A stretch of 64,000 nucleotides of DNA, taken from NCBI GenBank assembly GCA_024742275.1, contig JANSYS010000019.1:1-64000 (forward strand), read 5' to 3'. A program made the position numbers and the translations under genes. Below, piece after piece: positions 1 to 58,276 of the stretch (positions within the stretch are counted from its first letter, which is position 1; each line of letters begins with the position of its first letter). The stretch is from Alphaproteobacteria bacterium. GTDB lineage: Bacteria; Pseudomonadota; Alphaproteobacteria; Thalassobaculales; Thalassobaculaceae. The notes below the pieces were generated by a model. The model was not told where the DNA came from. It was given only the letters and a program-made list of their open reading frames with translations, and made no database searches.

Positions 1-139
1 AATCAGAACCAGTTGAAAAAACATCAGATTGTTTTACCGGTATTGATGCATTACGATTTATAATAGTTGTCATTACACCACCCATAGTTTCAACACCAAG
101 TGAGAGAGGGGTAACATCTAATAGAATTAAATCAGTAAT
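1..139 (-). pseudogene. dnaK: dnaK (Hsp70) 5'-truncated fragment, runs off the window start
   Basis: The minus strand reads 46 open codons with a strong DnaK signature ([16 protein letters not shown], then [11 protein letters not shown]) and continues past base 1. This is the start of the substrate-binding domain. Directly upstream is an in-frame TAA (140-142), then tRNA-Tyr and psaA, so the roughly 385-residue ATPase domain is absent. The break falls almost exactly at the linker between the two domains. There is no ATG at the fragment start. It is most likely a truncated pseudogene. A gene fission that keeps a separate substrate-binding piece cannot be excluded, because the visible codons show no decay. 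Confidence 0.8.
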
Positions 140-146
140 TTAAAAT

Positions 147-508: not shown

Positions 509-2776
509 ATGGTTACAACTCCACAAGAACAAGAAGCTAAAAAAAATAAAAAAGCACAAGTACTTGTTGATTTAAATGTAGTTGAAACAAGCTTCGAAAA
601 ATGGGCAAAACCTGGTCATTTTTCAAGAACATTAGCCAAAGGTCCAAAAACAACAACATGGATTTGGAACTTACATGCCGATGCACATGATTTTGATATT
701 CAGACAAAATCCTTAGAAGAAGTTTCAAGAAAAATTTTTAGCGCACATTTTGGACAACTATCTATTATTTTTCTTTGGTTAAGTGGAATGCATTTTCATG
801 GTGCATATTTTTCAAATTATACAGCATGGTTAACAAATCCATTACAAATCAAGCCTAGTGCCCAATCAGTTTACCCAATTGTTGGTCAAGAAATTTTAAA
901 TGCTGATGTGGGTGGTAATTTCCAAGGTATTCAAATAACTTCTGGATTTTTCCAAATTTGGCGTGCGGAAGGAGTTACAACACAACAACAATTATATTGT
1001 ATTGCTATCGGTAGTCTGGTAATGTCAGGATTAATGTTGTTTGCAGGATGGTTCCATTACCATAAAGCAGCACCAAAATTAGAATGGTTCCAAAATGCCG
1101 AATCAATGTTAAATCATCATCTTTCCGGATTACTTGGATTAGGTTCATTATCCTGGGCTGGACACCAAATTCATATTGGTAATCCAATCAATAAACTGTT
1201 AGATTCAGGAATGGATCCAAAAGATTTACCAGATCCCCATGAATTATTAATTAATCGTGATTTTATTGCAAGTTTATATCCTTCTTTCAAAGAAGGACTT
1301 ATTCCATTTTTTACATTTGATTGGTCAAAATATTCAGATATTTTAACGTTTAAGGGTGGATTAAATCCAACTACAGCGAGTTTATGGTTAACTGATGTTG
1401 CGCATCATCATTTAGCTATTGGTGTTTTATTCATTATTGCAGGCCATATGTATCGTACCAATTTTGGTATTGGTCATAGTATGAAAGAAATTCTTGAAGC
1501 ACATAGAGGTCCCTTCACTGGAAATGGACATCAAGGACTTTATGAAATTTTAACTACATCTTGGCATGCACAACTTGCAATCAATCTAGCTTTATTAGGG
1601 TCATTAACAATTGTTATAGCACATCATATGTATGCTATGCCACCATATCCATATATTGCAATTGATTATCCAACACAACTTTCTTTATTTACCCATCATA
1701 TGTGGATTGGTGCTTTTTGTATTGTAGGTGCAGGAGCACATGGATCAATTTTTATGGTTCGTGATTATGATGCTGCACTAAATTATAACAATCTACTAGA
1801 CAGAGTAATTCGTCATCGTGACGCAATTATTTCACATTTAAATTGGGTTTCTATCTTCCTAGGATTCCATAGTTTTGGGCTATATATTCATAATGATACA
1901 ATGCAAGCTCTAGGACGTCCTCAAGATATGTTCTCTGATAAAGCAATTGCATTACAACCAATTTTTGCACAATGGATTCAAGGTTTACATACTGCGGCTC
2001 CAAATACAACTTCACCAAATAGTTTAGCGACTGCTAGCTATATTTTTGGTGGTGATCCAGTTATTTTAGGATCGAAAATAGCTCTTGTTCCAATGAAATT
2101 AGGAACAGCTGATTTTATGGTTCATCATATTCATGCCTTTACTATTCACGTAACAGCCTTAATTTTATTCAAAGGGCTATTATATGCACGTAACTCAAGA
2201 TTAATTCCTGATAAATCAAATTTAGGCTTTAGATTCCCATGCGATGGACCGGGTCGTGGAGGTACATGTCAAGTTTCAGGTTGGGATCATGTCTTCTTAG
2301 GTTTATTCTGGATGTATAATTCAATTTCAATCGTTATTTTCCATTTTAGTTGGAAAATGCAGTCAGATATTTGGGGTTCAGTCACACCTGAAGGTGCAAT
2401 TACTCATATTACTGGTGGAAATTTTACAGAAGGAGCACTTACAATTAATGGGTGGTTAAGAGACTTCTTATGGTCACAAGCATCACAAGTAATTCAATCT
2501 TATGGATCAGCACTTTCAGCTTATGGACTTATTTTCTTAGGAGCTCATTTTATTTGGGCATTCAGCCTAATGTTTTTATTCAGTGGACGTGGATACTGGC
2601 AAGAATTAATTGAATCCATTGTATGGGCACATAATAAATTAAAAGTTGCTCCTGCAATACAACCGCGAGCATTAAGTATTACACAAGGTCGAGCAGTTGG
2701 TTTAGCTCATTATCTATTAGGAGGAATTGGAACAACTTGGGCGTTCTTTTTAGCTCGAATTATTTCAGTAAGTTAA
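509..2776 (+). CDS. psaA: Photosystem I P700 apoprotein A1 (PsaA)
   Basis: A 755-residue PSI reaction-centre subunit that binds P700, the primary acceptors and much of the antenna chlorophyll in the thylakoid membrane. Many His-containing hydrophobic helices are present. The F_X iron-sulphur cluster motif [12 protein letters not shown] lies near residues 575-586. Full length, with no frameshift or internal stop. It is followed after 30 bases by psaB, forming the usual psaA-psaB unit. The start is the first ATG of the frame and gives the expected N-terminus. Its integrity matters because the carbon-fixation genes a few kilobases away are dead. Confidence 0.99.
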
Positions 2777-2806
2777 TTTTTAAATAAGTAAAAAGGAGTT
2801 TTATCC

Positions 2807-5011
2807 ATGGCAACAAGATTCCCTAAATTTAGTCAGGTATTAAGTGAAGATCCTACTACACGTCGTATCTGGTATAGTATTGCAACGGTTCATGATCTCG
2901 AAAGTCATGATGATGTTTCAGAAGAAGCATTATATCAAAAAATTTTTGCTTCACATTTTGGTCACCTTTCTATTATTTTTCTTTGGACAGCCGGAAACTT
3001 ATTTCATGTTGCTTGGCAAGGAAATTTTGAACAATGGATTCTAAATCCATTAAAAGTTAAACCCATTGCTCATGGTATTTGGGACCCACATTTTGGTGAA
3101 ACCGCTTTAAAAGCTTTCACACGTGGTGGAGTGATTTATCCTGTTAATATAGCACTATCTGGAGTATATCAATGGTGGTATACAATTGGTATGAGAACAA
3201 ATCAAGACTTATATGTTGCGTCCGGATTTTTACTTATTGTTGCATTACTTTTCTTACAAGCAGGTTGGTTACATCTACAACCACAATTTAAGCCAAGTAT
3301 TGCTTGGTTTAAAAATAATGAATCTCGTTTAAATCACCATTTATCAGGGCTTTTTGGTTTCAGCTCACTTGGATGGACAGGACATTTAGTACATGTTGCA
3401 ATTCCCGAATCGCGTGGAATTCATGTAGGATGGGACAACTTTTTAAACATACTCCCTCATCCAGCAGGATTAACACCTTTTTTCTCCGGTAATTGGAGCG
3501 TATACGCAGAAAATGCTGATACATCTACACATATTTTCAATACTTTAGAAGGTGCAGGTACAGCAATATTAACATTTAAGGGAGGTTTTCATCCACAAAC
3601 CCAATCTTTATGGTTAACTGATATTGCTCACCACCATTTAGCTATTGGTGTTTTATTCATTATTGCGGGTCATATGTATCGTACCAATTTTGGTATTGGT
3701 CATAGTATGAAAGAAATTTTAGATGCTCATCGTCCTCCTGGTGGACGTTTAGGAAAAGGTCATGTTGGATTATATGAAACAGTAACTAATTCTCTTCATA
3801 TGCAACTTGGTTTAGCATTAGCATCATTAGGTGTAATTACATCGTTAGTAGCACAACATATTTATGCTTTAAATCCCTATGTATTTTTATCAAGAGATTA
3901 TGCAACAGAAGCTGCGTTATACACTCATCATCAGTATATTGCTGGTTTTTTAATGGTAGGTGCATTTGCACATGGTGCTATTTTCTTTGTTAGAGACTAC
4001 GATCCTGAAGCAAACCAAAATAATGTACTTGCAAGAATGCTTGATCATAAAGAAGCTATCATCTCACATTTAAGTTGGGTTTCTTTATTTTTAGGATTTC
4101 ATACATTGGGATTATATGTTCATAATGATGTAGTTGTAGCTTTCGGACAACCAGAAAAACAAATTCTTGTTGAACCTATTTTTGCACAATGGATTCAAGC
4201 AGCATCAGGAAAAACATTATATGGATTTGATACGCTATTGGCATCATCTACAAGTCCAGCAACTTTAGCTAGTCAACAATTATGGTTACCAAATTGGTTA
4301 GAAGCTATTAATAATAGTAAAAATTCATTATTCTTAACAATTGGACCAGGAGATTTTTTAGTACACCATGCAATTGCATTAGGGTTACATGTAACAACCT
4401 TAATTTTAGTAAAAGGAGCACTTGATGCACGTGGGTCAAAATTAATGCCAGATAAAAAAGACTTTGGTTATAGCTTCCCATGTGATGGACCTGGTCGTGG
4501 GGGTACATGTGATATTTCTGCATGGGATGCCTTCTATTTATCAATGTTTTGGATGTTAAATACTATTGGTTGGACAACATTTTATTGGCATTGGAAACAT
4601 ATTACATTATGGCTAGGAAATCCAGCACAATTTGATGAATCCTCAAATTATATTATGGGTTGGCTACGTGATTATTTATGGTTAAATTCATCACCTTTAA
4701 TTAATGGGTACAATCCATTAGGAATGAACAACTTATCCGTTTGGGCATGGATGTTCTTATTTGGTCATCTAATTTGGGCAACAGGATTTATGTTTTTAAT
4801 CTCTTGGCGTGGATATTGGCAAGAATTAATTGAAACAATTGTATGGGCACATGAACGTACACCATTAGCAAATTTAGTACGTTGGAAAGATAAACCTGTT
4901 GCATTATCAATTGTACAAGCACGATTAGTTGGTTTAGCTCATTTTACCGCTGGATATATATTTACATATGCACCGTTTGTTATTGCTTCAACTTTAGGTA
5001 AATTTGGGTAA
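2807..5011 (+). CDS. psaB: Photosystem I P700 apoprotein A2 (PsaB)
   Basis: A 734-residue partner of PsaA in the PSI core heterodimer. The second half of the F_X site, [12 protein letters not shown], lies near residues 556-567. Eleven-helix architecture and length are normal for the family. A Shine-Dalgarno-like AAGGAG at 2793-2798 precedes the ATG, which fixes the start. It is co-oriented with psaA upstream and rps14 downstream, a conserved red-lineage grouping. No decay is seen. Confidence 0.99.
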
Positions 5012-5968: not shown

Positions 5969-6038
5969 TCAAGAAAATCAATTCTTTAAAAACAATAAAG
6001 GTTAACCTTTATTGTTTTTAAAGAATTGATTTTCTTGA
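5969..6038. repeat. 70-bp perfect palindrome at the rpl20 3' end
   Basis: Two 35-base arms meet at 6003/6004 with no loop and no mismatch. The outer part of one arm (6018-6038) encodes the last six codons and stop of rpl20. The other arm lies in the spacer before tRNA-Thr. In RNA it would form an unusually long stem at the end of the rpl35-rpl20 transcript, so a terminator or 3'-end protector is likely. The length and perfection suggest a duplication or template-switch origin. Confidence 0.9.
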
Positions 6039-11539: not shown

Positions 11540-12539
11540 TTATTTACATAATTCAATATCCTCACTACCAATAATGTTAATAAAGTCAGTTCTATTAAAA
11601 TAATTAAAATCTTCTTTTTTAATTGTTACTAATAAATCATAATCAATAGGACCTTTTTTTGTTAAAATTTCTTCAATTCGAATGGCTTGATACGCTAACA
11701 ATTGATTTAAAAAGATCTTAAGCGTACAAACATTCGAAAAAGTTGAAAATTTAATTAATTGTTTTATATAGAAGGTAAGGATCTTAATTAAATCACTGGT
11801 AAATTTATAACGATTATCATTATGTAATAAAAATTCAGTAATAGCTATTAAATCATTGATATTATAATCTTTAAAATATATATGATTTCCAATACGTTAA
11901 GATATTCCTGGATTTGAATTGAAAAAATTATCAATTTCTTTCTTTGCACCCGCAAAAATAATTATTAAATTATTACGTTTATTTTCCATTACTTGGAATA
12001 ATAATTCAATAGCTTATAATCGATAATTACGATCATTATTTGGTTTATATAGATTAAAGGCTTCATTAATAAACAAAATACCCCCTTCTGCTTTTTGTAA
12101 TTGTTCTTTGGTTTTAGGTGCTATATGACCAACGTATTATCTCACTAAGTCCTCTCTTATCACATTTGTTATATGTCCTTTTGTTAAATACCCTAAATTT
12201 CTTAAAACTATTGCTATTTTTGAAGCAACAACGTTTTTTCCAGTACCTTATCGTCCTAGAAAAGCCATTTGTAAACTGGAATTTAAACTTGGTAGTTCTT
12301 GTATTACACGAATTCGATCAAACAATAAAACAGAAGATATTTCTTTAATTTTAGTTTTGACCTCTTTTAATGCAATAAGTTTTTTATTTAAAGTATCACT
12401 TACTTCTGCAATCCCTGTGTTTATAAAAATCTTTAATATCAATAAAATTTTTTTGTATTACAATACAAAACTGTTTTTTAATTTGTTCATCAGTTAAATC
12501 TGGTGATAAAGAAAAAGCCCTTTATTGAATTCTTGTCAT
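11540..12539 (-). pseudogene. cbbX: cbbX (red-type Rubisco activase) pseudogene
   Basis: Near full-length remnant of the AAA+ Rubisco activase. Recognisable segments include FSLSPDLTDEQI at the N-terminus, [36 protein letters not shown] (Walker B follows as ILFINEA), [14 protein letters not shown] and ILTKKGPIDYDLLVTI. Decay is extensive: a stop at codon 6, a frameshift near 12440, and further stops within Walker A, before YVGH, before AIELL and before RIGNH. Walker A is GR*GTGKN instead of GSPGTGKT. Several stops arise from GAA and TCA codons, so simple C-to-U editing could not repair them. In the ancestral order it follows rbcL and rbcS. Confidence 0.95.
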
Positions 12540-12615
12540 ATTTATTTTTTAAGGTTAAAAATATAATAAATTTGATTTTTTAATTAATACTGAAAAAAAT
12601 AAATAAAATTTTATT

Positions 12616-13508
<893 letters not shown>

Positions 13509-14556: not shown

Positions 14557-15456
14557 CTAAATTTCAGACGAATACATTCGTGTTGATGTTTTTTGAATCG
14601 ATTTATTTATATCAGAATCTAAAATTTGGTATAAATTACACGAAAAGAGTCTATTTATAATAAAAGCACGAAAATATAAAATTCCCAAAGGAAAATAATT
14701 GGAATCAATTAAATGAGTAAAATAATCTTCAGGTATTTGTGTTTTTAACAAATATGCAAAATATTTTTCGCTTTTTTTTATATCATTTCGAATTTTCGTT
14801 TCTTGATGATGTATTATTTTTAATAGTTTATATCTTAATAGATACCAATCTAAAGAACTTGGCAAGAAGAGTAAAATTAATTTGCCAATTTTGCTTTTTT
14901 TATCTTCCATCATTGTAAGAAAGAGAATTTCAGATGTTATAACTGGTGTTTTAAAACGTGAAATTGCATTTTCAGCAGCTTTCTCAAATAGTAGATTCAT
15001 ATCATGTGAGAAGGATATTTTAATATCAAGTTCTGTTTTATTAAAATAATATAAAAGTGAATGTGCAAAAAATGGTATAGGACCAAAAATTTTTTCTGGT
15101 AAGGTTTTTTTACTTACATTATAAGAACTAATCAAATACTTATTAATGATAGATTTTTTTAAACCATACTCATCTAAAATTGTTGTGAGTTCATTGTTTG
15201 AATCCAAAAATGTAAACAATAGAAAATCACAGGAAACTTTTTCTTTTTCAAAAATTTGTGCTAATAATTTTGTACGTAATACTATTTCAAACGCATTACG
15301 TGAAAAAAAATCAAAATAACTAACAGCCGATAAAGAGTAATCAAGCATTGTATAAATATGAAAACGATTTCGTTTTTCTAATTGAATTTGTTTTTTTTTA
15401 TCCAAATTTTCAAAAAATTTGGATTTGTTCTGATTATTTAATATTAAGGTTGTCAT
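14557..15456 (-). CDS. clpN: ClpN: separate N-terminal domain of the ClpC chaperone
   Basis: A 299-residue protein with two diverged Clp N-domain repeats: one around residues 55-110 (FEIVLRTKLLAQIFEKEKVS, then LLFTFL) and one around residues 155-215 (FEKAAENAISRFKTPVITSE, then ILFLTMMED). It has no AAA+ module. The AAA+ part of ClpC is encoded about 27 kb away and lacks this domain, so the two genes look like a fission product. N-domains recruit substrates and adaptors to the Clp protease in the stroma. A basic N-terminal extension of about 50 residues and the C-terminal 80 residues are not recognised. Confidence 0.78.
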   Translation of the reverse strand: MTTLILNNQNKSKFFENLDKKKQIQLEKRNRFHIYTMLDYSLSAVSYFDFFSRNAFEIVLRTKLLAQIFEKEKVSCDFLLFTFLDSNNELTTILDEYGLKKSIINKYLISSYNVSKKTLPEKIFGPIPFFAHSLLYYFNKTELDIKISFSHDMNLLFEKAAENAISRFKTPVITSEILFLTMMEDKKSKIGKLILLFLPSSLDWYLLRYKLLKIIHHQETKIRNDIKKSEKYFAYLLKTQIPEDYFTHLIDSNYFPLGILYFRAFIINRLFSCNLYQILDSDINKSIQKTSTRMYSSEI

Positions 15457-16215: not shown

Positions 16216-16228
16216 TTTATTAATTTTA

Positions 16229-16295
16229 TGGAACCTATGGGATTTGAACCCATGTCCATATTATATTATAGAATATGTCGATTCCAAAAGGTCCC
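16229..16295 (-). ncRNA. ssrA: tmRNA-like gene reduced to the tRNA-like domain (no tag reading frame)
   Basis: A 67-base gene. The acceptor arms GGGACCT and AGGTTCC pair (with G-U). The 5' side continues TTTTGGAATCGACAT, matching the hallmark GGAUUCGAC region of bacterial tmRNA, where the D-stem is missing. The 3' side has GGACATGGGTTCAAATCCCAT, the tmRNA T-arm with its GGAC lead. Between them a 6-bp stem (CATATT/AATATG) closes a 9-base loop, where a normal tmRNA has pseudoknots and a tag ORF of hundreds of bases. No normal anticodon arm or D-arm can be drawn. It is either a tag-less tmRNA or a decayed remnant with only the tRNA-like core left. Confidence 0.7.
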
Positions 16296-36469: not shown

Positions 36470-36961
36470 ATGAAAAATGTAACAAAAAGTATTTATCGTA
36501 ATATTTTCTTTGTATTTACTCTTTTAACTTTTAGTTCATCGTGTTTCGCAAGTGAATTAGATGAAGCGGTTCGAACTGTTCAGTTAACACCAACAAAAAA
36601 AGTTGTTCTAACTACAGAACAAGTAAAAAGAGGAAAAAGACTTTTTAACAGTACATGCGCAACATGTCATACCGGTGGGATCACAAAAACAAATCCAAAT
36701 GTCGGATTAGATGCAGAAGCATTAAGTTTAGCAACACCTGCTCGTAATAATATTGAATCTTTAGTTGATTATATGAAAAATCCAACAACATTCGATGGAT
36801 TAGAATCAATCGCTGAAATTCATCCAAGTATTAAAAGTGCAGATATTTTCCCCAAAATGCGTACTATAACAGAAGAGGATATGTACACAATTGCAGGTCA
36901 TATTTTAATATCACCAAAAATTGTAGCAGAAAAATGGGGTGGTGGGAAAATATACTATTAA
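36470..36961 (+). CDS. psbV: Cytochrome c550 of photosystem II (PsbV)
   Basis: A 163-residue lumenal extrinsic PSII subunit. Signal peptide at residues 1-27 ending FASELDEA, haem-binding CATCH near residues 63-67, and a C-terminal region ending WGGGKIYY typical of PsbV. It stabilises the oxygen-evolving cluster, so its intact state supports oxygenic PSII function. An upstream TA-dinucleotide run lies at about 36417-36431. Confidence 0.97.
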   Translation: MKNVTKSIYRNIFFVFTLLTFSSSCFASELDEAVRTVQLTPTKKVVLTTEQVKRGKRLFNSTCATCHTGGITKTNPNVGLDAEALSLATPARNNIESLVDYMKNPTTFDGLESIAEIHPSIKSADIFPKMRTITEEDMYTIAGHILISPKIVAEKWGGGKIYY

Positions 36962-37754: not shown

Positions 37755-39200
37755 TTTATTCAATCAAATCATAACCATAAAGAAATCCTATTTGTGAAAT
37801 TTTTTCCAAAATTTTAAATCACGACATATTAGCATTTAAAAATAATTCAATTATTGGTCGATTTAAAGCTTCTAAAACTATTTGTATAGAAAAAAGTTCT
37901 TCACTAATTAAATTTCTATGTCCCCAATTTTTCAGTTCTTCACTTAAGAATATGTAAAATATGCCACTACCTGGAACAATTCCTTCTTTTAATGAAGATT
38001 TTATAATGTTAATAGCATTTTCAATTTTTTGCCGTTTTTCATCAAATTGATATTGCTTTGAAAAGCCTATTTTAGTCTTTATAGTATTTCCTTATAAACA
38101 AGCAATAGGTGTACGTATTATATTTTTTTCATCTTCATTATTATTTGTTAGTAATTCTTGATTTAAATCATTAATACATCTTTATGCAATCACTTTTTGA
38201 AATTTTGAAACAATAAATGTACTTTTTTCTTTTTTTATTATTACTTTTTCAGCTTGTCCTAAATCTTCAATCTTGAAGTTTTTTATTTCACCTTTAATCT
38301 TTAATCCAAAATAATGTGAATGTATCAAAAGTGAGAAATCTTGTAAAATTACCGTTTTAAGAAATTTTATATAACTAAATTTAACAACAGTGATTTTTAA
38401 TTTTTTTTGAATATTATTTAATATTAATGTAGAAACAACACTTTTGTTTATTTTTTCCACAATAATAATTAATGAACCATTGTTTTTTTTATATTCAATT
38501 ATAATATTAAGTTGATTTATACATTTAAATGGTCTGGTTACTATTAATAAATATGATTTTTCATAAATCACACCAAAATTTTTCATATCATTAACAAAAT
38601 AAGAAGAGGTATAGGCATAATTCAATTGGATTCCTTGAACTATTTCTATTTCATTATCGGAAGAAATATTTTCTTCAATAACAAATAACCCATCTCGTTT
38701 AATTTATTGAATAGATCTGGTGAAAACTGAAAAAAGTTGTGTATTTATTTTTTTACCTCCTGACGTTTTAAATACACCTATAATTTGTTCAAGATTAGAA
38801 ATATACAATAAAATTTCTAATACTTTTTCGACTAAAAAATAACTAATTTTTTTTTACCTTGACTTAACAATTACAGAATTATATCGATTGACAATAAAAT
38901 TTAGTGAACACTGTACTAAGTAACAGATTATAATAATTGTAGTTATTGAGCCATCTCCAGATATTTTATATGTTTTAAAAGCAGCTTATTCAAAAAGTTT
39001 ACGCAAAGTATTAGCACTTTTTAAAGAAAAATCTAACGTTTTTATTCAAATAGAACCACTCGTAACAATTTTTATATCATTTTTTTTGGTTGTAATGGTA
39101 GCATTTTTAACAATTGGACCGAATGTAATTTTTACAAATTCATTAATTTCGTTTAGTGTTTTTATACTTTTATTTAATTCTTTATATAATCAAAATAGAT
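37755..39200 (-). pseudogene. groEL: groEL (chaperonin 60) pseudogene
   Basis: A long remnant of the plastid chaperonin in several frames. From the 5' side it reads ELNKSIKTLNEINEFVKITF, then KNATITTKKNDIKIVTSGSI, stop, then KTYKISGDGSITTII (the GDGTTT ATP-binding motif is changed). It continues RDGLFVIEEN and EIEIVQGIQLNYAYTSSYF, a 147-codon open stretch covering the apical domain (38182-38625), and EGIVPGSGIFYIFLSEEL (family EGVVPGGG). At least six in-frame stops and several frameshifts are present, and about the last 130 codons are missing. Chaperonin is required for Rubisco folding, so its decay beside a dead rbcL fits a shared loss of need. Confidence 0.93.
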
Positions 39201-39304
39201 TAGGCATATTGTATTTAAAATATATATATATATCTATTAAAAACTTAAATAATAAAAATTTGCTTATCAATCAAAATATATTTATATATATATAAATATA
39301 TATA

Positions 39305-39922: not shown

Positions 39923-41980
39923 ATGGAATATTCTTTACAGACATTAAACCAACGTTCCCGCTTAAAACATTTAACACTTACTAATATTATCGACACCTTA
40001 AATTTGATTGGATTTGAAGTTGATGATATTTTTTTTGAAAATACTTTTAATAATAAAGATTATCAAAATATAAGACTGCTTTTAAAAGTACCTGCAAATC
40101 GAGAAGATTTAGCAAATGAACACTTGTTGCTTAAAGATCTTCAATCAATCTTTAATTTTTCAGTAAAAAATCAATGGAAACTTTTGAAATCTTATTACTC
40201 ATTTATTTTGAAACAAAAATATATTAAATCAAAAAAGAATCACTCTACAAAAATACAATCTACGGTTCCAAATGTTTTTATTTTTATTAGTGAAATAGAA
40301 TATCACTTGCAAGATTTTTCGCCTTTTTGGATACAAAAAAAACTTATAAATAGTGGCTATAAGCCACAAAATAGTATAGAAGATCTTTTATCATTAATTC
40401 TTTTAGAATGGGGTGAATTAATTTCATTTAAAAATTATGAAATGAGTTCTCTTTTAAATCTTAGTATCTTATCAACTAACGAAATAATGGAAGATGAAAG
40501 TGGAAATAAAAAAATAATTCCAAAAAATACAATAGTCGTAAAAGATTCCAAAAATAATATTATTAGCTTTCTTGGTAGATTTGAAACAACTTATTCTTCT
40601 TTAACAAAGTATACAAAAGTTTTTGAAATTATTTTTTATGATATTCATGAAAATCAATTATGTCTTAACCCTTTAGAAAGTAATATATCATTTCGTTATT
40701 TACGAAATATGTTTTTAATACATTTAAAATCTAGTCTACAGCGCTTTTTAACTCTTTTAGAATTAATATATCAAGGGAATATTTCACATAATATAGTTTC
40801 AACGATTCAAAGTATCAAAAAAGTGTCTAATTATCGTTTTTTAAAGTTAAATAAACAAAAATTATTAAATTACTTAAAGAGTAACACATATAACCAAAAT
40901 ATATTCGAGAAGGCAGGTTTAAAATTAGTATGTAGTACTAGTAAACAGCTATATTTTCAAATTCCAATAACAAGAAATGATTTAAAACGCGATGTTGATA
41001 TTATTGAAGAGTATTGCAGATTCATTGGCTATTCAAATTTTTGTGAGATTCCTCCAATAAAAACTTATAAAATTAAACAAACAAAAATTAAACCTCTTGA
41101 ATTTATTAAAACGTATTTTTTAAATCAAGGATTTCAAGAAATTAATACAAATCCTATTCAAGATTCAAAAAATAAAAATAGTCAATCTATCTTACTTACT
41201 AATCCATTAACAAATGACTATAGTTTACTTCGTACTGAACTTATCTCACAATTATTCGATAATTATTCTCGAAATGTTCGAGCTGGATTTGAGACAAAAA
41301 ATTTTTTTGAGATTGGTCGAGTTTTTAAAAAAGTTAGTACAAATATTCATGAAATTGATAAATTAGGAGGAATTTTTCAAATTGAGAACATTAAAAAAGA
41401 CGTAGATAATTCTTCTGAATGGTTTTTTGCAAAAGGTTTACTTGAGAATTTTTTACTTCAATTTGGATATACAAAATATCAGATGAAGGATTTAAAATTG
41501 TCACATACATCACTTTTTCATCCGACCCGTTCAATAGATATATTAATACATAATAATAATATAGGTTCATTTGGAGAACTAAATCCAAAATTTAAAAAAA
41601 GTACATTTTCAAAATATGCGACTTATTTATTTGAATTTGATCTTAGTTATTTTAAAGCGTGGCGTTTACAGAGTCAAATAAAAAATTATAATATTTATTC
41701 CAAGTATCCTATAATTATTAAAGATTTATCATGTTCTTTAAGCAAACAAATTTCTTTTGTTGAGTTGAAAAAAATGATTTATAATTGCTCAAACAATTTA
41801 AAATCGGTTGAGTTTTTTGACCTATATTTTAGTGAAAAAGAGAAAGAAACAATTAATATAAACATTCGTTTAAAATTTCAATCTTTTGAAAAAACATTAT
41901 TAACATCAGATATAGAGAAATGTATTAATAGTATTCAAAAAAATCTGAATAAAAAATTTTGTGTAATTTTTGATATATAA
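39923..41980 (+). CDS. pheT: Phenylalanyl-tRNA synthetase beta subunit
   Basis: A 685-residue tRNA ligase subunit. Present are the B1-type start (LTNIIDTLNLIGFEVDDIFF), the B5 domain around residues 290-370 (IPITRNDLKRDVDIIEEYCR), the core with LTNPLTNDYSLLRTELIS near residue 430, and the C-terminal anticodon-binding domain (YSKYPIIIKDLSCSLSK near residue 590). Plastid pheT is kept in red algae and some ochrophytes only, so it helps place the organism. The alpha subunit would be nuclear-encoded. Confidence 0.93.
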   Translation: MEYSLQTLNQRSRLKHLTLTNIIDTLNLIGFEVDDIFFENTFNNKDYQNIRLLLKVPANREDLANEHLLLKDLQSIFNFSVKNQWKLLKSYYSFILKQKYIKSKKNHSTKIQSTVPNVFIFISEIEYHLQDFSPFWIQKKLINSGYKPQNSIEDLLSLILLEWGELISFKNYEMSSLLNLSILSTNEIMEDESGNKKIIPKNTIVVKDSKNNIISFLGRFETTYSSLTKYTKVFEIIFYDIHENQLCLNPLESNISFRYLRNMFLIHLKSSLQRFLTLLELIYQGNISHNIVSTIQSIKKVSNYRFLKLNKQKLLNYLKSNTYNQNIFEKAGLKLVCSTSKQLYFQIPITRNDLKRDVDIIEEYCRFIGYSNFCEIPPIKTYKIKQTKIKPLEFIKTYFLNQGFQEINTNPIQDSKNKNSQSILLTNPLTNDYSLLRTELISQLFDNYSRNVRAGFETKNFFEIGRVFKKVSTNIHEIDKLGGIFQIENIKKDVDNSSEWFFAKGLLENFLLQFGYTKYQMKDLKLSHTSLFHPTRSIDILIHNNNIGSFGELNPKFKKSTFSKYATYLFEFDLSYFKAWRLQSQIKNYNIYSKYPIIIKDLSCSLSKQISFVELKKMIYNCSNNLKSVEFFDLYFSEKEKETININIRLKFQSFEKTLLTSDIEKCINSIQKNLNKKFCVIFDI

Positions 41981-48379: not shown

Positions 48380-48509
48380 TATCTACATGTATTCTAAACA
48401 ATATGTGAATTATTTGTCAAGTCTCCTATTTTCGAAAAAATTATTATTATTTTTTTTTAATGGTATATATATATATATATTTAAAAATTTAAATAGAACT
48501 GGAAAATTT

Positions 48510-48875
48510 ATGTGTCCTGAATTAATTTTAGCAACAATTTATTTTTTTGTAATTATATCTATCAATATTTTTTTTTCTAAATTATTAAATAGTTATATTA
48601 GGACAATTAAAGAGTTACAGAAAATAAAAAATATTTTAACAATATTTCCTTCTCCTTCTGGATTAGTTATTTCAAATTTATATTTATATACAAAAAGTCA
48701 AATTAAAGAGCCAACTATACTTAAAAATTTTCATTTATTAACTGATTCTGAAGATATTTTAGTTCTAGGTAATTGTTATAAAAATTTAAATCAAACATTT
48801 AAGAAAAAAAATATTGATTTTCGTTCTTTTAGATATTATCTAAATTTATTAGAAAAGCAATCTTTAAATTCTTGA
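48510..48875 (+). CDS. Hypothetical membrane protein, 121 residues
   Basis: Not recognised. From the ATG at 48510 it encodes one strong N-terminal membrane helix (ELILATIYFFVIISINIFF), then a basic helix (SYIRTIKELQKIKNIL) and a soluble C-terminal part of about 75 residues with FPSPSGLVISNLYLYTKSQI and SEDILVLGNCYKNLNQTF. The open frame extends further upstream to 48372, but that part overlaps trnE and a TA repeat and looks non-coding. Composition resembles other small membrane-anchored plastid ycf proteins. Confidence 0.5.
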   Translation: MCPELILATIYFFVIISINIFFSKLLNSYIRTIKELQKIKNILTIFPSPSGLVISNLYLYTKSQIKEPTILKNFHLLTDSEDILVLGNCYKNLNQTFKKKNIDFRSFRYYLNLLEKQSLNS

Positions 48876-49344: not shown

Positions 49345-50874
49345 ATGGCTTTACCTTGGTATCGTGTTCATACTGTTGTATTGAATGATCCTGGAAGATT
49401 GATAGCTGTACATTTAATGCATACAGCATTAGTTTCAGGATGGGCAGGTTCTATGGCTTTATATGAATTAGCTGTTTTTGACCCTTCAGACCCTGTATTA
49501 AATCCTATGTGGAGACAGGGGATGTTTGTTATGCCTTTTATGGCACGTTTAGGTATTACTGAGTCTTGGGGCGGATGGACAATTACTGGTGAAAGTTCAA
49601 CAACACCAGGAATTTGGAGTTTTGAAGGAGTTGCTTTAACTCATATTATTTTATCAGGATTACTCTTCTTAGCTGCTATATGGCATTGGGTATATTGGGA
49701 TCTTGATTTATTCCAAGATCCAAGAACTGGTGAACCTGCATTAGATTTACCAAAAATTTTTGGAATTCATCTTTTATTATCAGGTATTTTATGCTTTGGA
49801 TTCGGAGCATTTCATGTTACTGGATTATTTGGGCCAGGTATTTGGGTATCAGATGCTTTTGGTTTAACGGGACATGTGCAACCTGTAGCACCTTCATGGG
49901 GACCAGAAGGATTCAATCCATTCAATCCAGGTGGAGTTGCTGCACACCATATTGCTGCTGGTACATTAGGTATAATTGCAGGTATTTTCCATTTAACAGT
50001 ACGTCCACCTCAAAGATTATATCGTGCATTACGAATGGGGAACATTGAAACTGTATTATCAAGTAGTATTTCTGCAGTATTTTTTGCTGCCTTTATTACA
50101 TCTGGAACAATGTGGTATGGATCAGCAACTACTCCTATCGAACTATTTGGACCAACACGTTATCAATGGGATAGTGGATATTTCCAACAAGAAATTGAAC
50201 GTCGTGTAGAGACTTCTCTTTCACAAGGAATTTCTGAAACAGAAGCTTGGTCACAAATTCCAGATAAACTTGCATTTTATGATTATATCGGTAATAACCC
50301 TGCAAAAGGTGGTTTATTCCGTTCAGGCCCAATGGATAAAGGAGATGGTATTGCCGAAGCTTGGCTAGGTCATCCAATTTTCCGTGATCGTGAAGGACGT
50401 GAATTAACAGTTCGTCGTATGCCTGCATTCTTTGAAACTTTCCCTGTTATTTTAGTTGATAAAGATGGTATTATTCGCGCTGATATTCCTTTCCGACGTG
50501 CTGAATCAAAATATAGTATTGAGCAAGTAGGGGTAAATGTAAGTTTTTATGGTGGAAAATTAAATGGGCAGACATTTAAAGATGCACCAACAGTTAAAAA
50601 GTTTGCTCGTAAAGCACAATTAGGTGAAGTATTTGAGTTTGATCGTACAAGTTTAGAGTCAGATGGGGTATTCCGAAGCAGTCCTCGTGGTTGGTATACT
50701 TTTGGTCATGCAAATTTTGCTCTATTATTCTTTTTTGGTCATTTATGGCATGGATCAAGAACAATTTTCCGTGATGTATTTACTGGTATTGGTCCAGAAG
50801 TTACTGAGCAGGTTGAATTTGGTGCATTTAGAAAAATTGGAGATAGAACAACACCACGTAAAGGAAGCGTTTAA
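49345..50874 (+). CDS. psbB: Photosystem II CP47 core antenna protein
   Basis: A 509-residue chlorophyll-binding inner antenna of PSII with six membrane helices and a large lumenal loop. [20 protein letters not shown] and the C-terminal [20 protein letters not shown] are diagnostic. Intact and of normal length. It heads psbB-psbT-(psbN)-psbH. Confidence 0.99.
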
Positions 50875-50908
50875 CTTGTTTTATTTTTAAATTTTTTATT
50901 AATCATAA

Positions 50909-50939
50909 AGTCACATATTTCTAAAAAAAATATGTGACT
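50909..50939. terminator. Stem-loop between psbB and psbT
   Basis: Twelve-base arms (50909-50920 and 50928-50939) around a 7-base loop. It lies inside the psbB-psbT spacer, so it may be an RNA processing or stabilising element rather than a full terminator. Confidence 0.55.
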
Positions 50940-50974
50940 ATTCAATACTAATCTTAAATTGAAATATTATTATT

Positions 50975-51073
50975 ATGGAAGCCTTAGTTTATACATTTCT
51001 ATTAATTGGAACTTTAATGGTACTTTTTTTTGCAGCATTTTTCCGTGAAACACCAAAAATTTTAAGAAGCTAA
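50975..51073 (+). CDS. psbT: Photosystem II subunit PsbT
   Basis: A 32-residue single-helix PSII subunit: [19 protein letters not shown], then RETPKILRS. Located directly downstream of psbB as in other plastids. Confidence 0.97.
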
Positions 51074-51088
51074 AAACTTTTTAATATT

Positions 51089-51223
51089 TTAATCATCGTC
51101 TTCTTCAAATGGATCAATGAGATTTTCTGATCCTGGTCCAAATGAGCTATATATTGTTAATAATGTTACTCCTATAGCTAATGAGGCAATTCCAAGGGCT
51201 ATAAATATAGTATCAAGATTCAT
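51089..51223 (-). CDS. psbN: PsbN, photosystem II assembly factor
   Basis: A 44-residue protein on the opposite strand between psbT and psbH, its conserved place. One helix, then the family tail YSSFGPGSENLIDPFEEDDD. Confidence 0.95.
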   Translation of the reverse strand: MNLDTIFIALGIASLAIGVTLLTIYSSFGPGSENLIDPFEEDDD

Positions 51224-51303
51224 AATTTTTTTCTTTCTAATTTAGTAATATATATTATTTTTGTCTTTATTTAATTTATTAAATTCATAATTTAACTTTT
51301 ATT

Positions 51304-51507
51304 ATGGCACTAAAAACTCGTTTAGGTGAAATTCTTAAACCTTTAAATATTGAATATGGTAAAGTAGCACCAAATTGGGGTACAACACCTGTTATGGGTA
51401 TTTTTATGGCTTTATTTCTTGTATTTTATTTGATTATTCTTCAAATATATAATTCATCATTAATTTTAGAGAACGTTGATGTTGATTGGAGTGCATTAGA
51501 GGGTTAA
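51304..51507 (+). CDS. psbH: Photosystem II phosphoprotein PsbH
   Basis: A 67-residue single-helix subunit. [20 protein letters not shown] and [18 protein letters not shown] are diagnostic. The phosphorylated N-terminal extension of land plants is absent, as in other red-lineage forms. Confidence 0.97.
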
Positions 51508-55029: not shown

Positions 55030-55512
55030 TTAAAAGAATCCTAGTGTAACTGCTTTATCAATTGGCATTGTTGCACCAATTCCGAACCAAATGGCAAATA
55101 TTGTCCCTATAAAGAAGACCAACATTGCAATCGGACGTCTAAACGGGTTTTGAAATTTGTTAACATTTTCAATAAATGGAACTGTTAATAAACCTAAAGG
55201 TACTGCTGCCATAGAAGCGACACCTAGTAATTTATTAGGTAAAATACGTAATAAATTAAAAGTGGGATAAAAATACCATTCTGGTAATATTTCTAATGGT
55301 GTCGCAAACGGATTTGCTTTTTCACCAAATCCTGATGGTTCTAATATTGACAATCCAATAATAGAAGCAAACGTTCCAAGTATTACCACTGGAAAAATAT
55401 AAAGTAAATCATTAGGCCATGCAGGTTCACCATAATAGTTGTGACCCATTCCTTTTGCTAATTTTGCACGTAGTTTTGGATCTGAAAGATCCGGTTTTTT
55501 AATAACAGACAT
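55030..55512 (-). CDS. petD: Cytochrome b6f subunit IV (PetD)
   Basis: A 160-residue protein with three membrane helices. [20 protein letters not shown] at the N-terminus and the Q-site motif [13 protein letters not shown] near residue 76. It follows petB by 69 bases. No intron. Confidence 0.98.
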
Positions 55513-55581
55513 AATATATATATATAATTTTCAATTATTTTGATTACTTTAAATAGTGTTTTATTAACTTAATTAGATAAT

Positions 55582-56229
55582 TTACAATGGTCCTGAAATT
55601 CCTTGTTTTCTTATCATTAAGAAATGAGCCAGCATTAGGACAGCTGTTAACAGTGGTAAAACAAAAGTATGTAAACTATAAAAACGTGTTAACGTTCCTT
55701 GACCAACACTTGTTCCACCACGTAACAGTTCGACTAAAGTATTTCCTACAACAGGTATTGCTTCTGGAACTCCTGTTACAATTTTACAAGCCCAGTATCC
55801 AACTTGATCCCAAGGTAATGAATAACCGGTAACACCAAAAGATACCGTTACGGAAGCTAAAATTACGCCAGTTACCCATGTTAGTTCTCTTGGTTTTTTG
55901 AATCCACCTGTTAAGTAGACACGAAAGGTATGTAAAATCATTGTTAATACCATCATACTTGCAGACCAACGATGAATTGAACGAATTAGCCAACCAAAAT
56001 TAACTTGAGTCATCATATATTCAACAGAAGCAAATGCATCAGCAACAGAAGGACGATAATAAAAAGTCATTGCAAATCCCGTTGCAACTTGTACTAAGAA
56101 ACAAACAAAAGTTATACCACCTAAACAATAAAAGATATTGACATGTGGAGGTACATACTTACTTGAAATATCATCAGCAATTGCTTGAATTTCAAGACGT
56201 TCTTGGAACCAATTGTAAACTTTTCCCAT
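55582..56229 (-). CDS. petB: Cytochrome b6 (PetB)
   Basis: A 215-residue protein with four membrane helices and four haem-ligand histidines ([20 protein letters not shown], and the later [10 protein letters not shown] and [11 protein letters not shown]). The covalent haem cysteine lies near residue 35 (YCLGGITFV). Intact. Confidence 0.98.
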
Positions 56230-56946: not shown

Positions 56947-57261
56947 TTATGTATTCGGAAGTATTTGGTTGTTAGATGAAAATTCATTATCCGGAGTTAA
57001 AAATAACATACAATGGCATTCTTTTCGTTCACGCATCGGAACACAAGGACAATTCCAATAAGCTAAACTAATTTCATCTTCTTTATTATCATAATAGCGA
57101 CATGGACATAATGGTGCACCATATAATTCTTTATTTTTTGCTAATCCTTGAATAACGGATTCTGTTACTTCTGTATCAATACAAAAAAAAGTATTTGTAG
57201 ATTTTGCATAGTTTGCTGCAAATTGTTTCATTGCCTTTATGATTTTTGCGTTAATACTCAT
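56947..57261 (-). CDS. ftrB: Ferredoxin-thioredoxin reductase catalytic chain
   Basis: A 104-residue beta subunit holding a [4Fe-4S] cluster and a redox disulphide. The three cysteine pairs CPC, CPC and CHC lie near residues 52, 71 and 82 (GAPLCPCRY, YWNCPCVPM, KECHCMLF). It passes electrons from ferredoxin to thioredoxin, classically switching Calvin-cycle enzymes with light. It is intact although the Rubisco locus is dead, so thioredoxin control of other targets, such as ATP synthase or lipid and tetrapyrrole synthesis, presumably keeps it. Confidence 0.97.
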   Translation of the reverse strand: MSINAKIIKAMKQFAANYAKSTNTFFCIDTEVTESVIQGLAKNKELYGAPLCPCRYYDNKEDEISLAYWNCPCVPMRERKECHCMLFLTPDNEFSSNNQILPNT

Positions 57262-57561: not shown

Positions 57562-57684
57562 TTATAATGAAGAACCTAATCCTGCATATGAACCATAAAT
57601 GAAAAGACTTAAAACCGTCAAAACACCCATTCCACCAACCACTGCAATTACCCAAAGAGGTATACGTCTATTAGTATCTGCCAT
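57562..57684 (-). CDS. psbJ: Photosystem II subunit PsbJ
   Basis: A 40-residue subunit: [20 protein letters not shown], ending [11 protein letters not shown]. Last gene of psbE-psbF-psbL-psbJ. Confidence 0.97.
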
Positions 57685-57728
57685 AAAAGTTAAATAATTT
57701 AAAAAGTAAAAAAAATTTCTTTTGAGAG

Positions 57729-57987
<259 letters not shown>

Positions 57988-58030
57988 AAAGATATGAGTG
58001 ATAAATTAATTTTTTAAGTTATTAAGCTAA

Positions 58031-58276
58031 TTATTTAAGGTCTTCTAGCTCTTGGTTTACATTGAAGCGTTCATTTGCTAATGGTACTTGTTGTCTATCT
58101 TGTGTGAAGTATTCATCTGGACGTGGTGTTCCAAATACATCATAAGCTAATCCAGTACTAACAAAGAGCCATCCTGATAAGAATAATGTCGGAATAGTAA
58201 TACTATGAATAATCCAATATCGAATACTTGTTAAAATATCTGTAAAGGGACGTTCCCCTGTTGATCCACCAGACAT
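58031..58276 (-). CDS. psbE: Cytochrome b559 subunit alpha
   Basis: An 81-residue PSII haem subunit: [20 protein letters not shown], haem histidine in [13 protein letters not shown], and a lumenal tail. First gene of the psbE-F-L-J operon. Confidence 0.98.

Follow-up and report, generated by a model that had tools for sequence, protein, structure and literature searches.

A plastid groEL pseudogene and a dead Rubisco operon on a chrysophyte-type contig with intact photosystem genes

A groEL pseudogene and a dead rbcL-rbcS-cbbX operon were found on a plastid contig whose photosystem genes are all open. We consider it likely that this is a true groEL pseudogene in a chrysophyte-type plastid with a dead Rubisco operon and photosystems held by selection, and that the constraint on GroEL was relaxed first, before stop codons accumulated jointly in groEL and the operon. 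Light probably serves this alga as an energy source, with no CO2 fixation through Rubisco. With somewhat less assurance, though we lean towards it, the host would be a natural alga in which both photosystems are selected while Rubisco, its activase and the chaperonin are dead. Such an alga would be obligately photoheterotrophic, with an oxygenic plastid, and its chaperonin constraint would have faded before the client was lost.

Results

The contig is plastid DNA of chrysophyte type

The window, the whole 64,000-nucleotide stretch that was analysed, is part of a 76,620-bp contig (C8) inside a 4.69-Mb bacterial genome bin. Because it carries psaA, psaB, psbB, psbV, petA, petB, petD, atp genes, acsF and a plastid ribosomal-protein block, the contig is not bacterial; it is plastid DNA misbinned with a bacterium. 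The reverse-complement match between its two ends (Table 1), together with dnaK running into the end, indicates that the contig is the large single-copy region, flanked at both ends by a collapsed inverted repeat. Neither the repeat, in which the rRNA genes and usually psbA, psbC and psbD sit, nor the small single-copy region is part of the contig; in Poterioochromonas the two together span about 33 kb (PMC8405094). As both were also unrecognised in the bin, psbA, psbC, psbD and a possible second copy of rbcL or groEL would be out of view. A search of the bin for a second plastid contig by means of psbA and psbD matched only bacterial pufL/pufM-like genes. The two matches, frames of 327 and 331 residues side by side on contig C31 (33586-35250), were read as bacterial pufL and pufM, and the bacterium of this bin appears to be an anoxygenic phototroph.

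Gene content, rather than a tree, suggests that the plastid is that of an uncultured ochrophyte of chrysophyte (golden-alga) type in the wide sense. The contig carries syfB (pheT) together with acsF, tsf and ftrB, and dnaK lies at the repeat boundary; these marks were compared against published plastomes (PMC6330437, PMC4603697, PMC7511666), and a dnaK split at the repeat boundary is itself a chrysophyte-type mark (PMC6330437). Sequence and Pfam were the basis for naming tsf and ftrB, the latter by reading. In addition, clpC is without its N-domain, and a separate 299-aa open reading frame resembles clpN by reading, with no match in Pfam or NCBIfam. A separate clpN characterizes Limnista (chrysophytes plus eustigmatophytes), and in chrysophytes the remainder of clpC is undivided (PMC4603697, PMC6330437). 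Synurophyceae plastomes carry ilvB and ilvH; neither gene was seen on this contig, and the two either lie in the unseen repeat or are lost.

Two other sources were considered. A leptophyte plastid was dropped, as leptophytes keep rbcL and rbcS (PMC12816646). In a Karlodinium-type plastid, in which genes contain stops and frameshifts (PMC3082547), many core genes are hit, compared with only four here. Searches for relatives with pheT and rpoC1 in genome contigs revealed no related plastid, the rpoC1 matches being bacterial and due to the universal ADFDGDQM motif, and searches for photosystem II and PsaA/B families in about 820 related bacterial genomes found none. Among viral contigs, clpC, pheT, sufB, rpoC1, psbV and psbB gave one 4.9-kb contig, the rest being phage or bacterial. 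This "viral" contig, IMGVR_UViG_3300021233_000287, contains a plastid clpC end 73% identical to the clpC described here and a dnaB-like gene that carries an intein-like insert. Its phage-like genes are joined by adapter-like peptides (SEEHTSELQS, RKSTRLNSSHV), and it is probably a chimeric assembly.

Table 1. Features of the plastid contig, in window coordinates.
Feature	Position	Strand	Remarks
Single-copy/inverted-repeat junction inside dnaK	1..141	.	identical to the reverse complement of the last 141 contig bases
psaA and psaB	509..5011	+	intact
cbbX (red-type Rubisco activase) pseudogene	11606..12432	-	one frame, 4 TAA stops
rbcS remnant	12440..12532	-	first ~30 codons only, one stop; E 7.5e-4 to Galdieria RbcS
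rbcL pseudogene	12604..13493	-	N-terminal part 13493-13386; rest 13365-12604 in another frame
clpN-like separate N-terminal piece of clpC	14557..15456	-	sequence reading; candidate lineage marker
psbV (cytochrome c550)	36470..36961	+	intact neighbour of groEL remnant
groEL (plastid Cpn60) pseudogene	37760..39207	-	single co-linear frame, 8 in-frame stops, C-terminus deleted
Longest stop-free groEL run, apical domain	38185..38703	-	holds most of the 147-aa ORF at 38182-38625
pheT/syfB	39923..41980	+	intact; lineage marker
psbB, psbT, psbH	49345..51507	+	intact; psbN on minus strand
petD and petB	55030..56229	-	intact
psbJ-psbL-psbF-psbE	57562..58276	-	intact

groEL is a pseudogene in a single frame

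The original prediction had placed a degraded plastid groEL in this region, and similarity searches recovered it. PF00118 matched with 62.6 bits in a search of the own genome, with 7 in-frame stops inside the matched span. Among solved GroELs compared by phmmer, a reconstructed ancestor matched at E 2e-47 and the E. coli protein at 7e-41, with residues 14-480 co-linear. The similarity runs without rearrangement through the equatorial, intermediate and apical domains, as in a type I chaperonin pseudogene. From a putative ATG at 39207, where a working plastid gene would have an uninterrupted frame, there are 8 in-frame stops (TGA, TGA, TAA five times, TGA), and about 65 C-terminal codons are gone before rps16. 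The remaining two frames of the same strand contain 58 and 59 stops; therefore the groEL frame is far from random.

Stops, the missing C-terminal part and an altered ATP-binding site had all been predicted and were all found. Frameshifts had been predicted too, but are unsupported: alignment with E. coli GroEL requires only tiny in-frame gaps. Among the ATPase residues (E. coli numbering), D52 is changed to S and D398 to N, though D87 is kept, and the GDGTTT motif reads GDGSIT, a combination at odds with a working gene. The N-terminal third, described earlier as heavily broken, holds 5 of the 8 stops, and the 147-codon open stretch noted in the apical domain exists (Table 1). G+C at the three codon positions is 0.31, 0.25 and 0.11, compared with 0.16 in spacers. 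The periodicity of codon-position G+C is still strong, and on these sequence features groEL is a relatively young pseudogene. The remaining GroELs of the bin belong to the bacterium itself.

The Rubisco operon is dead

Both rbcL and cbbX are dead as well, as originally predicted. The rbcL remnant contains one frameshift and 4-5 stops. Two large deletions, covering approximately residues 108-262 and 303-333 in Galdieria numbering, together remove about 185 codons including the active-site lysine region; none of the minus-strand frames contains the active-site KDDE motif. In cbbX both nucleotide-binding motifs are broken, with the Walker A proline replaced by a stop and its T by N, and the Walker B D by N. 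The rbcS remnant has no Pfam match; it was spotted by eye and is weakly confirmed by similarity and by its position between rbcL and cbbX. Complete copies of all three genes, as in a working form ID (red-type) Rubisco operon, are thus lacking, and a search across the bin for a further Rubisco large or small subunit found none. The dead island (13493-11606) adjoins rps4, and in Poterioochromonas rps4 and rbcL-rbcS are also neighbours (PMC8405094).

Photosystem genes are kept by selection

An inventory of all gaps longer than 120 bp on the 76.6-kb contig revealed two dead islands only, rbcL-rbcS-cbbX and groEL; the other gaps hold small photosynthesis genes that could be recognised and were named by reading their sequences. 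All psa, psb, pet and atp genes on the contig are open, as in a photosynthetic plastome; psbA, psbC, psbD and psaC lie outside it. Across 30 psa, psb, pet, ycf3, ycf4 and acsF genes (4,889 codons) there are no internal stops, compared with about 79 expected at the stop density of the pseudogenes (P about 3e-35, or about 6e-18 at half the rate), and the atp genes (1,830 codons) likewise contain none of about 30 expected. The absence of stops shows that the photosystems were held by selection after Rubisco was interrupted: the genes on the contig for photosystem I, photosystem II, cytochrome b6f, ATP synthase and chlorophyll synthesis are kept by selection.

Ferredoxin-thioredoxin reductase is normally tied to Calvin-cycle regulation, and its best-known targets are Calvin-cycle enzymes. 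Its subunit gene ftrB is intact (56947-57261), which counts against a Rubisco-less reading. In Poterioochromonas Rubisco is kept and ftrB is absent (PMC8405094).

GroEL probably eroded before its frame was interrupted

The densities of stops per codon in groEL (8/482), rbcL (5/290) and cbbX (4/275) are alike, at 1.5-1.7% (chi-square p=0.96, with small counts and little power), consistent with the three genes having been interrupted roughly in one period. In a neutral simulation this density corresponds to about 0.08 substitutions per site. rbcL and cbbX retain 75% and 70% of their strongly conserved residues, and the simulation predicts 75-80% for that age. groEL, in contrast, retains only 57 of 213 residues invariant in bacteria (27%). 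Intact genes on the contig retain far more of their bacterial invariants (rpoB 71%, rpoC1 70%, tufA 85-89%). Neutral decay from a baseline of 70-100% down to 27% would be accompanied by 24-31 stops, whereas groEL has 8 (P 1e-4 to 2e-6). When mutation bias and ancestor were varied over 18 combinations, the excess erosion of groEL stood at baselines of at least 70% (P 0.007 to 2e-9), and it weakens only if the functional GroEL ancestor already retained at most about half of the invariants.

So few invariants with so few stops indicate that constraint on GroEL was lost while the frame was open, before the stops arose. To judge from these residue counts, either the constraint on GroEL probably went first, or the plastid protein was already evolving unusually fast in this lineage; the early erosion may be confined to the lineage or common to the plastid GroEL of chrysophytes at large. 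The original prediction of a joint dismantling of the Rubisco assembly pathway therefore holds in part. rbcL, rbcS, cbbX and groEL are all pseudogenes, they are the sole dead genes, and their stop densities are indistinguishable; a simple order in which the chaperonin follows its client is unsupported. As read from the sequence, the history is not simply one of "client dies, chaperonin follows".

Discussion

The following sequence of events would account for these observations. A nucleus-encoded Cpn60 presumably took over most general folding, relaxing the constraint on plastid GroEL, which would have persisted for a time, possibly to serve Rubisco. The host alga, which presumably feeds on prey, would then have given up CO2 fixation by Rubisco, and with it the last selected use of GroEL, after which rbcL, rbcS, cbbX and groEL would have gathered stops over one period. 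The thylakoid system would have been retained because light-driven ATP and reductant still pay, with other electron sinks taking the place of CO2 (photoheterotrophy).

It is also possible, with a probability that we put well below that of the reading just given, that groEL was lost for reasons unrelated to Rubisco, a nuclear plastid Cpn60 having replaced it on its own schedule, so that the joint death is a coincidence. The loss of GroEL constraint well before the stops, and far beyond that in rbcL and cbbX, would fit such a history, and one diatom and one red alga are known to combine a nucleus-encoded Cpn60 with a plastid groEL (PMC1550267). In colourless Cryptomonas groEL persists even without rbcL, so the two genes are not strictly tied; colourless chrysophytes and diatoms without rbcL, on the other hand, have lost groEL together with it (PMC7511666). 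These opposed patterns make the link between client and chaperonin a tendency, not a rule. Two observations speak against coincidence here: apart from groEL and the Rubisco operon no gene on the contig is dead, and their stop densities are equal.

We regard as improbable that an intact second rbcL-rbcS-cbbX, groEL or both lie in the unseen inverted repeat and that the visible copies are decayed duplicates. The repeat is missing from the contig, rbcL-rbcS of Poterioochromonas lie inside the repeat of that plastome (PMC8405094), and repeat boundaries shift often in the group (PMC6330437). The dead rbcL, however, adjoins its usual neighbour rps4, most simply its original locus, and groEL lies remote from it in the middle of the single-copy region, so two independent relocations would be required.

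Slightly less probable again is that CO2 is still fixed by a nuclear Rubisco, either a transferred form ID enzyme or form II in a dinoflagellate with a chrysophyte-type plastid, leaving the plastid set redundant. Such an enzyme would account for the retained photosystems and for ftrB, and form II Rubisco is nuclear in dinoflagellates. Against this, to our knowledge no transfer of form ID rbcL to the nucleus is known in ochrophytes. The fucoxanthin dinoflagellate Karlodinium, moreover, retains a plastid rbcL (PMC3082547).

It is very unlikely that the plastid is heading for complete loss of photosynthesis, with photosystem genes that have so far escaped breakage. Complete losses of photosynthesis are frequent in chrysophytes (PMC7511666, PMC6019013), but for the time after the stops appeared the stop-free photosynthesis genes refute this, unless mutation is much faster in the dead genes than in the genes around them. 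That the stops are read through, edited or assembly artefacts and the proteins made can practically be dismissed: groEL and cbbX do each stay in one frame, through 482 and 275 codons respectively, and carry no frameshift, but every other gene is open with normal stops, the stops are of three kinds at positions requiring different base changes, catalytic residues carry missense changes (as in GroEL D398N and the CbbX Walker motifs), and rbcL and rbcS lack about 185 codons and most of their length, respectively.

The preferred reading, early GroEL relaxation followed by joint interruption of groEL and the Rubisco operon, can be compared with several known systems. Non-photosynthetic, Spumella-like chrysophyte plastomes (PMC7511666) share the chrysophyte-type gene set, have lost groEL, rbcL, rbcS and cbbX, and keep sufB, sufC and petF. 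There, psa, psb and most pet genes, acsF and syfB are gone as well, whereas those on the present contig are intact and its four dead genes can still be recognised as pseudogenes. The mixotrophic chrysophyte Poterioochromonas malhamensis (PMC8405094) has a large single-copy region of similar size, the same rbcS-rbcL-rps4 neighbourhood and a prey-eating life style, presumed likewise for the present host; it keeps rbcL and rbcS, however, and is without tsf, ftrB, acpP and syfB, all present here. A Chlamydomonas rbcL deletion mutant (PMC9096841) also has photosystems without Rubisco, and electron sinks other than CO2 can carry the flow; the state is thus possible but light-sensitive. That strain is a laboratory mutant dependent on acetate, whereas here a natural genome has its photosystems under selection. 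UCYN-A, a Rubisco-less cyanobacterial symbiont (discussed in PMC8143392), is a natural case of light-driven metabolism without Rubisco; it differs in being a nitrogen-fixing cyanobacterium that is also without photosystem II, the genes of which are intact in this eukaryotic plastid. Some colourless Cryptomonas are without rbcL too, with the opposite pattern of groEL retained and photosystems lost (summarised in PMC7511666).

Models of plastid reduction place the loss of photosystem genes first or early, with Rubisco sometimes kept; the contig would represent the reverse order, caught early while the remnants are readable. Light energy and CO2 fixation, two uses of photosynthesis, would here be separated in a living lineage. 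The role of plastid GroEL becomes testable through which genes go with Rubisco, and in what order, and the case bears on the share of natural-water chlorophyll that lies in cells without CO2 fixation. Our literature search found no report of a dead Rubisco in an algal plastid that keeps its photosystem genes intact; all preprints and most subscription papers were outside its scope, and the negative outcome is no proof of novelty.

Other features of the window

Between trnE and trnK (48387-48875) lies a 162-aa open frame with no family match. A whole-window Rfam scan placed 70 bases at 16226-16295 just over the tmRNA cut-off, a match that was absent when the region was scanned alone. A perfect 70-bp palindrome with 35-bp arms (5969-6038) overlaps the last codons at the 3' end of rpl20 and is likely a hairpin terminator or a recombination site.
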